64,000 nucleotides of DNA from SAR86 cluster bacterium (GTDB lineage: Bacteria > Pseudomonadota > Gammaproteobacteria > Magnimaribacterales > Magnimaribacteraceae): NCBI GenBank assembly GCA_023703575.1, contig CP097969.1, positions 1,459,517 to 1,523,516 of the forward strand, in the 5' to 3' direction. Both the position numbers and the translations under genes were made by a program. The first letter of the stretch is position 1. Every line of letters begins with the position of its first letter. The notes under the pieces are model-generated. The model was not told the origin of the DNA. It made no database searches and was given only the letters and a program-made list of their open reading frames with translations. Shown in pieces: positions 30,362-34,105 of the stretch.

Positions 30362-30437
30362 GCCCAGATAGCTCAGTCGGTAGAGCAAAGGACTGAAAAT
30401 CCTTGTGTCGGTGGTTCGATTCCACCTCTGGGCACCA
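30362..30437 (+). tRNA. tRNA-Phe (GAA)
   Basis: A 76-nt cloverleaf. The acceptor stem GCCCAGA pairs with TCTGGGC, followed by discriminator A and encoded CCA. The D arm is GCTCAGTCGGTAGAGC. The anticodon arm AAGGA-CTGAAAA-TCCTT has anticodon GAA. The T arm is GGTGG-TTCGATT-CCACC. It is close to E. coli tRNA-Phe in length and loops. It borders the accessory stretch, and tRNA 3' ends are common integrase targets. Confidence 0.98.
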
Positions 30438-30484
30438 CTTCCCAAGCATGTTTCAGCTTGATAGTCTATTAGCCAAATAGAAAA

Positions 30485-30506
30485 AGTCACCACATAGTCA
30501 CCACAT
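30485..30506. repeat. Tandem 11-bp direct repeat AGTCACCACAT x2
   Basis: Two perfect, adjacent copies (30485-30495 and 30496-30506), 48 nt after the tRNA-Phe CCA. Short tandem repeats beside a tRNA 3' end can be arm-type integrase binding sites. No integrase gene is present, so the role is inference. Confidence 0.6.
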
Positions 30507-30551
30507 CTATATCAAAAGCTTTCGCAATCTATAAATCTGTTCGGGTTAGTT

Positions 30552-30584
30552 TCATCTTATGTTTGATGGGTACGCATGAGCCAT
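30552..30584 (-). pseudogene. Possible remnant of an IS5-family transposase N-terminus
   Basis: The minus strand reads MAHAYPSNIR then stop. HAYPSNI is, from memory, the start of IS5/IS1031-type DDE transposases (M-x-HAYPSNI-S/T-x-EQF). After the stop the same frame continues with further stops around a segment reading PEQIYRLRKLL, which could be the degraded continuation. Only ~10 residues support this, so it is tentative. Confidence 0.3.
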
Positions 30585-30661
30585 GCCACATACCGGGGGA
30601 GTATATGAACTGCTCAAACATTTTTAGCCAAAAAAGGTTGTAAAGTAGTAGAGTAAGAATC

Positions 30662-30805
30662 ATGTTAAAACTACCCAATCCAAGAGACCTTGTTCTAGAT
30701 AAAGAGGTTAAAGTTTCTAATGGGATTAAAGGACACCAACACCGGGAAAAGAATCAATTAAAGAGAAAGTATTTCCAGATACATGACTTAGAGGAGTTTG
30801 ATTGA
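30662..30805 (+). CDS. Small ORF, 47 aa, unknown
   Basis: An ATG ORF of 47 codons starting MLKLPNPRDLVLDKEV and ending YFQIHDLEEFD. It is basic in the middle (REKNQLKRKY) and acidic at the end. GAG lies 9 nt upstream. Its TGA overlaps the ATG of the next ORF (TGATG), which suggests coupling. I do not recognise it. It may be a real small protein of the islet or chance. Confidence 0.35.
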   Translation: MLKLPNPRDLVLDKEVKVSNGIKGHQHREKNQLKRKYFQIHDLEEFD

Positions 30806-30891
30806 TGGATATGCTTATATTCCTAATAGCCCTTTCAGTTGCTTTCGGATGCTACTATTTGTTTAGAGGCAAAGAAAGGAAAGATAATTAG
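30805..30891 (+). CDS. Small ORF, 28 aa, single membrane helix
   Basis: A 28-codon ORF beginning MDMLIFLIALSVAFGCYYLF, a single predicted membrane helix, with a basic tail GKERKD. A good GAGGAG site lies 8 nt before the ATG, inside the preceding ORF, whose stop it overlaps. The architecture (short hydrophobic helix, charged end) resembles small membrane peptides. No function can be assigned. Confidence 0.35.
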   Translation: MDMLIFLIALSVAFGCYYLFRGKERKDN

Positions 30892-30955
30892 CTAGTGTTT
30901 GCAGTTGCTTTTGTAACTATGGTCTTTTTAGTTATATTTAATTCATAGATAACTT

Positions 30956-31255
30956 ATGCAAGAAGACGAAGAACTAACTCTTGAAGATGTCGAAGATAAG
31001 ATTGAGAAATTAGAGTCTGATATAAATGACAGGCTAGATGCTCAAGAAGAAGTACTTGAATCTTTCAACGAAGCCTTGGAAAGAATTGATGACTACCTAA
31101 CAAATACTCTAGGAAATGAACTTGAGATTATCGAAGTAGAGATAGAGCATGCCAAAGAAAGAAGATTAGAGGTATCACAAGAACTTCGAGAAGAGATTCG
31201 TGAAGAAGTTATGTCTCTAAGAGAATATATTAATGAAAATTTTAAACATAATTAA
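30956..31255 (+). CDS. Acidic coiled-coil protein, 99 aa, unknown
   Basis: Almost entirely Glu/Asp/Lys/Leu/Ile. Heptad-like spacing of Leu/Ile/Val runs from residue ~6 to 92 (e.g. VEDKIEKLESDINDRLDAQ), predicting a long coiled coil with no cysteine and no membrane segment. No recognisable domain. The gene is close to the secreted ABM-like protein downstream (9 nt). There is no clear ribosome-binding site. Confidence 0.6.
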   Translation: MQEDEELTLEDVEDKIEKLESDINDRLDAQEEVLESFNEALERIDDYLTNTLGNELEIIEVEIEHAKERRLEVSQELREEIREEVMSLREYINENFKHN

Positions 31256-31264
31256 GACTACCTA

Positions 31265-31696
31265 ATGAAACACCTACTTCTCTCACTAACCTTAATACTC
31301 TCTGCTAATGCTTGGGCTGAAGATTACGAAAATGAAATAATTTTTTATCAAGAATTTAGCCCGCTTAAAAATGAGCAAGAAACTGCTAAGTTTGCTGAAT
31401 ACTATCAGAGCATAGTCGATAAAAATGAGCCAGACACTCTCGGATGGAAGTTTTTTAAAGCAGACGACAAAGTCATAGAAATACTAAGATGGAAAGATTC
31501 ACAAGCAATAGTTAGACATCTAGAAAATGTTTCTGAAGGTGGAATCTTTGAAAACGATTTTAAATCTTTTAATGAACACTTTGCTATCGAAAGCATAAAA
31601 GTATACGGAAATGTAGATGCTGATGTTAAAAATTTGCTTATGGATTTTGGACTGCCTTTTGAATTCTATCCACTAATTGCTGGATATAGCAGATAA
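31265..31696 (+). CDS. Secreted ABM-like (dimeric alpha/beta barrel) protein
   Basis: A 143-aa protein with a cleavable signal peptide (residues 1-18, cleavage after NAWA). The mature part has the antibiotic-monooxygenase pattern: a first strand with FYQEFSPLK, a helix, EPDTLGWKFFKADDKVIEILRW, then SQAIVRHLENV. This is the order of the DABB fold. Periplasmic ABM-like proteins are uncommon, and its substrate is unknown. The call rests on pattern only. Confidence 0.5.
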   Translation: MKHLLLSLTLILSANAWAEDYENEIIFYQEFSPLKNEQETAKFAEYYQSIVDKNEPDTLGWKFFKADDKVIEILRWKDSQAIVRHLENVSEGGIFENDFKSFNEHFAIESIKVYGNVDADVKNLLMDFGLPFEFYPLIAGYSR

Positions 31697-31728: not shown

Positions 31729-31923
31729 ATGTATTATCCCGCTTTAATTGTTTTTGTTATAACCCTAATCCCCCTATTTTTCACAAAGTTCCTTTTTCTT
31801 GCTGAATGGGAAAGACCTAAAGATTTAAATGGTTTAGATGCTAGAGTGATTATCTTCTGGGGCTATGTGTTTGGCATGGTTCTACCAATAGGTCTTGTAG
31901 CGTTTAGAGGTTATATTATTTAG
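31729..31923 (+). CDS. Small membrane protein, 64 aa, unknown
   Basis: Two membrane helices (residues ~3-27 and ~41-62) joined by a short charged loop with EWERPKDLNGLDARV. No recognisable family. The islet contains several such short hydrophobic ORFs in the same direction. No clear Shine-Dalgarno precedes the ATG. Confidence 0.45.
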   Translation: MYYPALIVFVITLIPLFFTKFLFLAEWERPKDLNGLDARVIIFWGYVFGMVLPIGLVAFRGYII

Positions 31924-32054: not shown

Positions 32055-32258
32055 ATGTTTATTAAAACTATATCTTTTTTACTTTTCTTTTTTTGTACCT
32101 TCTTTTTACTGATAGGTGTTTATTTAATAAGCGTCTCATTGACGAATTTCCAAGGAGAACTGCTAATAGTAAATCTCTTATCTTCTTTGATGTGTTTTGC
32201 AATTTCTGGAGCTTTATATCTTCTTAGAAAAAAATTAAATGAAAAAAATATTGATTAG
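32055..32258 (+). CDS. Small membrane protein, 67 aa, unknown
   Basis: Two predicted membrane helices (~5-29 and ~38-57) with a basic/acidic C-terminus RKKLNEKNID. No family recognised. It overlaps an extended in-frame start of the following hydrolase, but not the preferred start at 32275. Confidence 0.4.
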   Translation: MFIKTISFLLFFFCTFFLLIGVYLISVSLTNFQGELLIVNLLSSLMCFAISGALYLLRKKLNEKNID

Positions 32259-32274
32259 TTATTTCAATATCCAA

Positions 32275-33156
32275 ATGAAAAAATTCCTAGTCTTATACCT
32301 CATTTCGTTCGCTTCTCTGAATGTTTATTCAAACTACACATTAGATCAAGAGACGACAATTGCAGAGATCAATGGAATCTCGCTTGCTTATAAAAGTATT
32401 GGCATGGAGGAAGATCCACCTGTATTAATGGTAATGGGCCTACTGGCATCACATAAAGTTTGGGGAGAAACCATTGTCAATGGACTTGTCGATTCTGGGT
32501 ACAGGGTTATCCTCTTTGACAATAGAGATACAGGGGATAGTGAGAAGTTAGATAGGCTAGGAAGACCTAATCTTTATTGGAAGTACTTTCTTTATTCCTT
32601 GGGTATTGGTTTTAATGCGCCATATACACTTGAAGATATGGCATATGATGGTATTGCATTATTAGACCACTTAGATATTGAAGAGGCTCATATAATTGGA
32701 GCTTCTATGGGAGGCATGATAGCTCAAATAATAGCGTCCAAATTTCCAGATAAGACGACCAGCTTAGTGTCACTTATGTCATCTCCTAGAATTCCAAAAA
32801 CCTCTGAGATTTCACAAGGAAATCAAGAAAATCTAAGAAATATGGAAAATGTTGATACAGAAGGTGCGCGAGAATATGGCTTTTATCCAAGGGCAATGCC
32901 TAGGCAATTGACTGCAGTTTTTAAGGCCGGAGACAGGTCTGATATTGTAAAAAATATCTCCGTACCAACGCTGGTACTTCATGGAGAAGATGATGCTTTA
33001 ATACCCGTAAGTTATGGAAGGCTTACTTCAGAACTCATACCAAACTCAACATTTAAGGTTTACAAAGATATGGGTCATAATTTACCCAAAGAAGTTATAC
33101 CTATTTTGATCGAGGATATTGTAAATTTTTACAAAAAAGTAGATGAAGTTCTTTAA
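32275..33156 (+). CDS. Exported alpha/beta hydrolase
   Basis: A 293-aa protein. ATG 32275 gives a signal peptide KKFLVLYLISFASLNVYS; an upstream ATG at 32239 would add 12 residues and spoil it. The fold is clear: an oxyanion/nucleophile elbow GASMGGMIAQ (Ser), an acid in LHGEDDALIP (Asp) and His in DMGHNLP. It is similar to esterases/lipases of the AB hydrolase-1 group. It overlaps the next gene by 14 nt. Substrate unknown. Confidence 0.82.
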   Translation: MKKFLVLYLISFASLNVYSNYTLDQETTIAEINGISLAYKSIGMEEDPPVLMVMGLLASHKVWGETIVNGLVDSGYRVILFDNRDTGDSEKLDRLGRPNLYWKYFLYSLGIGFNAPYTLEDMAYDGIALLDHLDIEEAHIIGASMGGMIAQIIASKFPDKTTSLVSLMSSPRIPKTSEISQGNQENLRNMENVDTEGAREYGFYPRAMPRQLTAVFKAGDRSDIVKNISVPTLVLHGEDDALIPVSYGRLTSELIPNSTFKVYKDMGHNLPKEVIPILIEDIVNFYKKVDEVL

Positions 33157-34105
33157 TAAAGAAAATAAATTATATCCACCAATCGAACCTTATGATTCCG
33201 GCTATATAAAGCAAGGAATCCATGAAATTTATTATGAACAATGCGGGAATCCCAAAGGTAAACCTGCAGTATTCCTTCATGGTGGGCCTGGTGGAGGTGC
33301 TGGAAGCTTTTCTAGAAGATTTTTTAATCCTAAGAAATATCGCATAGTTCTTTTCGATCAGAGAGGATGTGGAAAAAGCAAACCCCACACTTGTCTTGAA
33401 AATAATACTACTTGGCACCTAGTTGAAGACATTGAGTCAATAAGAAAAAAATTAAGCATAGATAAGTGGCTTGTTTTTGGTGGTTCTTGGGGTAGTACTC
33501 TCGCATTGGCTTATGCACAGAGTCATCCTCAAAACGTAACAGAGCTTGTTTTAAGGGGTATCTTTATGTTGAGACATAAAGAAATCCAATGGTTCTATCA
33601 ATATGGAGCAAGCGAATTATATCCGGAAGCATGGCAGGGATTTTTGAACGAAATTCCAAAAGAAAAGAGAGGCGATTTGGTTGATGCCTATAGGGAAATC
33701 TTTAATGGAGATGATGAAGAAAAAAAATTATCAGCTGCAAAAGCCTGGTCTAAATGGGAGGCATCTACTAGTTTTATTAATCATAATCCCGAAGCTGTAA
33801 AAGATTCTGTGGACAGCAAATTTGCATTAGCTTTTGCTCTTATTGAAAACCATTACTTTGTGAATAATGGTTTCTTGGAAAATGAAAATCAACTTCTCGA
33901 TAATATCGATAAAATCAGAGACATCCCTGCTGTAATAATTCAAGGAAGATACGATGTAGTATGCCCTCCTACGACTGCTTATGAGCTACATTCGAGATGG
34001 CCAGAATCTGAACTAAAAATAGCTCCTTTTTCAGGTCATTCTGCATTCGAAAAGGAAATAACACACCTACTAATAGAAACAACAGACAGATTTTCCAAAA
34101 CCTAA
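33143..34105 (+). CDS. pip: Proline iminopeptidase
   Basis: A 320-aa alpha/beta hydrolase with the S33 peptidase pattern. HGGPGGGAGSFSRRFFNP is the oxyanion loop, LVFGGSWGSTLALAYAQ the nucleophile elbow (Ser in GGSWGS), then GRYDVVCPPTTAYELH (Asp) and FSGHSAFE (His). It removes N-terminal proline from peptides in the cytoplasm; there is no signal peptide. It overlaps the upstream hydrolase by 14 nt and is 9 nt from the next. Confidence 0.93.
   Translation: MKFFNKENKLYPPIEPYDSGYIKQGIHEIYYEQCGNPKGKPAVFLHGGPGGGAGSFSRRFFNPKKYRIVLFDQRGCGKSKPHTCLENNTTWHLVEDIESIRKKLSIDKWLVFGGSWGSTLALAYAQSHPQNVTELVLRGIFMLRHKEIQWFYQYGASELYPEAWQGFLNEIPKEKRGDLVDAYREIFNGDDEEKKLSAAKAWSKWEASTSFINHNPEAVKDSVDSKFALAFALIENHYFVNNGFLENENQLLDNIDKIRDIPAVIIQGRYDVVCPPTTAYELHSRWPESELKIAPFSGHSAFEKEITHLLIETTDRFSKT

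Follow-up and report, generated by a model that had tools for sequence, protein, structure and literature searches.

The tRNA-Phe locus

The window is a stretch of 64,000 nucleotides from the genome of a SAR86 bacterium, assembled as a single contig of 1,591,815 bases. G, C and L numbers are our labels for genomes, contigs and loci. The features at and to the right of the tRNA-Phe gene are as follows.

30362 to 30437, plus strand: tRNA-Phe(GAA), the integration target, found by ARAGORN and Rfam; displaced partial copies in relatives start at tRNA position 20-35
30388 to 30437, plus strand: 3′ half of tRNA-Phe (positions 27-76), which is the part found duplicated at attR in relatives, with 100% copies in G005 and G056
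30485 to 30506, plus strand: two candidate arm-type integrase sites, AGTCACCACAT twice at a pitch of 11 bp; offset and pitch recur in relatives
30552 to 30584, minus strand: MAHAYPSNIR frame, ten codons, not conserved, rejected as a transposase remnant
30574 to 30665, plus strand: leader of p45, with 82-89% matches next to tRNA-Val(GAC) in four further genomes (L115, L116, L119 and L124)
30662 to 30805, plus strand: p45, a conserved element-associated ORF of 47 codons defined by a family alignment; a second copy lies within this genome's own tRNA-Val(TAC) element
30805 to 30948, plus strand: small membrane-type ORF (MDMLIF...), broken at 30889-30891 by an in-frame TAG
30956 to 31255, plus strand: acidic, probably coiled-coil ORF of 99 aa, cargo; matched at none of 13 sister loci
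31265 to 31696, plus strand: ORF of 143 aa with a signal-like start, cargo; found at two of 13 sister loci (G010, G006)
31729 to 31923, plus strand: membrane-type ORF of 64 aa, cargo; six of 13 sister loci (G002, G007, G008, G010, G012, G015)
32055 to 32258, plus strand: membrane-type ORF of 67 aa, close to where the variable block ends on the right; six of 13 sister loci (G006, G007, G008, G010, G012, G015)
33143 to 34105, plus strand: alpha/beta hydrolase, conserved right flank; begins +35 (G027) and +94 (G030) past tRNA-Phe

The tRNA gene, the repeat, the two tiny ORFs and the small unknown proteins to their right had all been named in an earlier, sequence-only reading, and all were recovered here. 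The two copies of AGTCACCACAT are perfect and adjacent, +48 past the tRNA. A scan of the whole window returned this pair as its sole perfect tandem 11-mer; 40 Markov-1 resamples of 64 kb held 0.075 such tandems on average and at most 1. Among the 35 tRNAs of this genome, tRNA-Phe alone has an exactly repeated 7-mer with a pitch of 11 within 150 nt. With one gene from G056 added, this survey of 36 tRNA genes ruled out arm pairs as a general feature of tRNAs.

Searches of the 64-kb window returned no integrase, integrase fragment, attR or P461, a protein described below. All own-genome matches of the tRNA-Val integrase lay outside the window, and the tRNA-Phe integrase had no own-genome match at 1e-12. 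The best ungapped match of the 46-nt tRNA 3′ half in 30438-64000 (plus strand) covered 25 of 46 positions, in line with the earlier remark that no second tRNA 3′ end follows downstream. Rfam searches for an RNA element in the spacer, at E values up to 1, returned the tRNA and a sub-threshold antisense match on it, and nothing else. A consensus search of 30438-30700 found neither promoter nor terminator.

The minus-strand string MAHAYPSNIR followed by a stop is present, as had been noted. Its reading as the start of an IS5-type transposase failed. In relatives sharing this DNA the frame is altered or lost: in G010 it runs MAHACPSKRR, and G015, G006 and an old copy of the spacer in G005 lack any counterpart. 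PF13340, presumably the N-terminal domain of IS5-type transposases, had no match in any of the 19 genus genomes (mostly incomplete assemblies), against control matches in 5 of 14 genomes. The candidate was therefore rejected. Apart from ten residues resembling the start of an IS5 transposase, nothing speaks for an IS5-family transposon remnant beside the tRNA; we give this explanation practically no credence, and the likeness is most likely due to chance.

Sister tRNA-Phe loci

The tRNA-Phe locus was read in 13 of 18 genus relatives. G014, aligned first, was left out because its contig ends within the tRNA, G009 because its contig starts there, and G001, G016 and G017 because a weak, paralogue-like MutY match gave no usable anchor. 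Upstream, mutY, yggX and tRNA-Phe could be aligned at all 13 loci. As far as the contigs reach, the block to the right of the tRNA differed in content from the window at every one of them; post-tRNA sequence is short in G005 (322 nt) and G013 (873 nt).

The nearest sister, G010, has the spacer through p45 in common with the window (92% over the aligned block) and matches the window again from 31293 onward as far as compared, with a 187-aa gene replacing the two intervening ORFs. G015 likewise has the window spacer through p45. The sequence-only reading had named two observations as speaking against an insertion, namely a spacer shared exactly by all close relatives and a frame unlike any transposase. 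Only the second was made: 11 of the 13 sister loci do not share the spacer in the window's form.

Elsewhere the block carries a short-chain-dehydrogenase-like gene (G007, G008) or an ABC-F-like ATPase (G003), both assigned by eye, a MazG-like gene together with one of 291 aa (G011), or, in G018, a gene of 470 aa, a part of which matches the candidate defence family PDC-M72B. Two genomes of another genus, G027 and G030, appear to have empty sites, as their hydrolase begins 35 and 94 nt past the tRNA.

p45 and the interrupted ORF

Members of the p45 family turned up in 13 of 199 genomes of the order; all but one of these belong to the genus, 12 of whose 19 genomes have it. For 11 of 17 separate copies, the distance to a tRNA or displaced tRNA half (Phe, Val(GAC), Ser) is no more than 2 kb, in a tally that includes a G019 copy whose surroundings were not read. 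One further copy sits within the tRNA-Val(TAC) element, 2.2 kb away. Against this trend, the copies of G018 and G009 are more than 4 kb from the nearest tRNA, and for those of G001 and G013:C2 no tRNA was found within the stretch read. The p45 leader occurs twice in G006 (L125/L044), before two different small ORFs, as if it were a reusable unit.

The ORF that starts at 30805 stops after 28 codons at the TAG. Uninterrupted relatives have 54 aa (L035) and 46 aa (L044).

Displaced tRNA-Phe halves

Second, partial tRNA-Phe copies starting near the anticodon arm, at position 20-35, were found in 11 of 35 family genomes (tRNA-gene search, E up to 1e-5). In eight of these (G005, G011, G013, G018, G020, G025, G031, G034) the displaced half is at least 96% identical and reaches position 76; it is weaker or shorter in G014, G026 and G029. 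A partial second copy is also present in G036. Judged from the sequences, this footprint is what integrases cutting in the anticodon loop would be expected to leave.

Both tRNA copies lie on one contig at eight sites examined, and seven of these have no integrase. Four of the seven (G025, G031, G026, G034) are also without a clear arm pair. Such sites may have decayed, or may have been moved in trans.

Between tRNA-Phe and its displaced 3′ half, G011 holds a block of 1.36 kb and G018 one of 1.66 kb (loci L045 and L046), each with uninterrupted ORFs and no integrase. Arm-like repeats stand at the right end in G011 and at both ends in G018 (pitch 10 and 12). In G011 the arms read AAGTAATCAT, in agreement with the G005/G010 type. 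These two blocks lend some weight to a non-autonomous cassette at the window locus as well, that is, a block that came without an integrase and relied on an arm-matched one acting in trans. The window, however, has no attR and contains a broken gene, which fits decay equally well or better, and we regard the cassette explanation as possible but rather unlikely.

In G013 (L016), the stretch from +1 to +266 past tRNA-Phe contains a 221-bp remnant between the tRNA and a second 3′ half. The first 40 nt or so past each tRNA copy are identical, an arrangement resembling a microCIME.

Elements at tRNA-Phe in G005 and G056

The G005 integrase (489 aa) carries Phage_integrase and Arm-DNA-bind_3 domains, the latter at 28.4 bits with a cut-off of 27, and lies about 100 nt from a 100% displaced tRNA half. 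The order of tRNA, arms and p45 is common to the window and the left end of the G005 element, where the p45 homologue starts at +214 as against +225 in the window. The element is split across two contigs and the arm types of its ends differ (AGTAATCAT and AGGCATCAT), so that two elements rather than one may be present.

Beyond the displaced half, G005 contains a window-like spacer with arms identical to those of the window at 22 of 22 positions. Since it lies outside attR, this spacer is flank to the newer insertion. From its arms, p45 and layout we infer that it was itself once an element end, now without a surviving partner.

G056, from another SAR86 family, carries a 9,483-bp insertion at tRNA-Phe that ends in a 100% identical 3′ half (positions 27-76) and is apparently intact. 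From the displaced half inwards follow a tyrosine integrase of 494 aa, P461 and small ORFs. The integrase is 57.5% identical to that of G005, and P461 is 48.7% identical to the protein in the tRNA-Val element of the window genome. Ten G056 proteins were searched against Pfam: the integrase matched Phage_integrase, with the arm domain sub-threshold (23.8 bits, cut-off 27), one protein matched SRAP, one MORN_2, and seven had no match.

Direct repeats at 11-bp pitch are found about 47-51 nt inside both ends of the G056 element. At the left end, AGTCATCAAGAAGTCATCATA (pitch 11) stands at +47, one base nearer the tRNA than in the window; at the right end, an inverted pair, TGATGACTTAATGATGACTTA, stands 51 nt inside attR, with a third copy further in.

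Related elements at other tRNA genes

At tRNA-Val(TAC) (L035 6415-13067, C1:534414-541066), the window genome itself contains an element of about 6.5 kb that appears intact, with an integrase, P461 and p45. A weaker arm pair is present on one side and a pair seen by eye on the other. The tRNA-Val copies flanking this element are identical over their first 43 nt and divergent after that, from which it appears that the element provides the 5′ half of the working tRNA-Val together with its upstream DNA. The 5′ half thus looks shared here, unlike the tRNA-Phe sites, where it is the 3′ half.

At tRNA-Val(GAC), exact pitch-11 pairs were found in G017, G015 and G003 and a pair matching at 8 of 9 positions in G004; G018 has none. 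In G017 this tRNA gene carries a 12.8-kb element (L112/L115, G017:C6, about 23.4-36.3 kb) with pitch-11 pairs at both ends. Its cargo comprises an AlwI-like restriction enzyme, a D12 methyltransferase, a PvuRts1I-like enzyme and the candidate defence gene PDC-S02. Pitch-11 pairs were also present at tRNA-Ser of G013. The three parent elements that could be sized (6.5, 9.5 and 12.8 kb) thus lie at tRNA-Phe or tRNA-Val; P461 is present in all of them and p45 in two.

P461 (about 415-465 aa) was found in L035 (11244-12629), L112, L113, L134-L137 and L179, the L035 copy matching phrog_4756. It adjoins a tyrosine integrase in the window genome, G017, G056 and one of two Woeseiaceae records. With the G013 protein as query, tblastn gave weak matches to 45 phage records, of which 44 belong to Vibrio phages. 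One plasmid also gave a weak match to P461. Pattern scans of viral contigs confirmed no relatives of P461 or p45. By eye, we take its motifs (DYS, R..K, VHDS/YDE) to resemble those of family-A polymerases. A profile search of the PDB gave no match with E values of 1 or less, and the predicted structure was too poor for use (mean pLDDT 45).

The candidate arm pair across sites

GTCA-type repeats starting exactly at +49 and +60 were found in 6 of 15 spacers, namely those of the window, G015, G010, G006, G005 and G005 past its displaced half. The 15 comprise the window, the 13 genus relatives and the old copy in G005. Nine of the 13 sister loci lack an arm pair near +48; in G013 a pair of different sequence stands at +32. 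Outside the genus, the pair was found in G056 only among 16 tRNA-Phe sites read, of which G028 offered just 84 nt. The Pfam arm DNA-binding domain scored just above its cut-off in the integrases of G005, G017 and the tRNA-Val element. Because the layout recurs and the integrases carry an arm domain, the repeats are best read as arm-type integrase sites of attL.

This recurrence also bears on a hypervariable intergenic region, in which homologous recombination would swap small genes lying between conserved flanks, with the repeat being a chance occurrence. Block content that differs at all 13 sister loci between conserved flanks would fit such a region, as would the nine loci missing the pair. 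The offset and pitch of the repeat nevertheless return at several sites and in an element that appears intact, displaced tRNA halves are present in relatives, and the resamples put the chance expectation of the tandem far below one. We therefore hold this explanation to be quite improbable.

Arm types distinguished among the sites include AGTCACCAC, GGTCATCAC and AGTAATCAT. The two copies at one site resemble each other more closely than do copies taken from separate sites (8.29 vs 6.74 of 9). In permutation tests the counts were 8 of 5040 with seven sites and 2 of 120 with near-identical sites removed, the samples being small and related. Arms and flanks do not go together: the window and G010 are 90% alike in flank and agree at 13 of 22 arm positions, the window and the old G005 copy at 72% and 22 of 22, and G010 and the G005 element at 42% and 20 of 22. 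In this small sample, arm sequences thus appear to vary between sites independently of the flanking DNA, which is mildly surprising.

Interpretation of the window locus

Taken together, the stretch from 30362 to about 32240 is very probably an attL-type remnant left by a small integrative element specific for tRNA-Phe, whose cargo later turned over. The case rests on relatives because integrase, integrase fragment and attR are missing from the window. That a mobile element inserted here and lost its integrase had been proposed before; the displaced halves of relatives, the integrases adjoining them in G005 and G056, the block variable at 13 of 13 sister loci and the apparent empty sites bear this out.

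Under this explanation, the repeats would bind the N-terminal arm domain of the integrase. Strand exchange would take place within the anticodon loop, so that the incoming DNA would restore a whole tRNA gene. The window copy, having presumably lost its right end, could no longer leave on its own. It might still be moved if a related element landed beside it (accretion, as for CIMEs).

More tentatively, the SAR86 tRNA-Phe anticodon loop might serve as a cassette platform, on which integrase-less cassettes of one or two genes are moved in trans by arm-matched integrases. The arm pair would then be exchanged as a unit between related ends and set which integrase can move a site. We think it doubtful that this wider picture holds. 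If arm types truly switch, the evolution of integrase specificity becomes directly testable. The arm pair, at a pitch of 11 bp and about 48 nt from the tRNA end, also offers a short signature for element ends after integrase loss.

Comparison with known systems

SAR86 bacteria are abundant and largely uncultured, and how their small genomes gain genes is poorly known. Restriction enzymes and candidate defence genes are found in related elements and cassettes (G017, G018), and the family may therefore matter for how surface-ocean bacteria resist phages. Among the open-licence literature matches listed (titles and abstract openings), none concerned tRNA-anchored elements in SAR86. As regards phage satellites of the PICMI/PLE type, which are packaged in the particles of a helper phage, the weak phage matches of P461 are mostly to Vibrio phages.

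CIMEs and microCIMEs, as outlined in PMC7563491, are decayed integrative elements without recombination genes, stacked at one target, and the window resembles them in this. MicroCIMEs are given there as 130-220 bp, comparable with the 221-bp remnant of G013. CIMEs keep both att sites, whereas the window keeps the attL side alone and is for that reason called CIME-like rather than a CIME. CIMEs moreover derive from ICEs or IMEs, whereas the scanned proteins of the SAR86 parent elements matched no relaxase or conjugation family.

Arm-domain integrases use arm sites (PMC8138268), and paired arm-type sites lie on either side of the attP core, for which the anticodon loop is a common place in mycobacteriophages (PMC10865867). 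Lambda-type integrase sites in tRNA genes would share with the SAR86 sites an arm-domain integrase and paired arms flanking an anticodon-loop core. They differ in that SAR86 arm types appear to vary between sites independently of neighbouring DNA.

Tycheposons and tRNA-anchored aquatic islands, as described in PMC10872708, have the same tRNA border, a tyrosine recombinase, changing cargo and streamlined hosts. Border and recombinase were both seen in G056, G017, the window genome's own tRNA-Val element and G005 (on two contigs). The remnant borders the 3′ end of a tRNA gene that serves the family as attB, and the window has neither recombinase nor attR. The SAR86 parents measure 6.5, 9.5 and 12.8 kb and carry P461; they were compared with tycheposons by description. 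The remnant is thus a known kind of thing, met here in a little-studied group of ocean bacteria.
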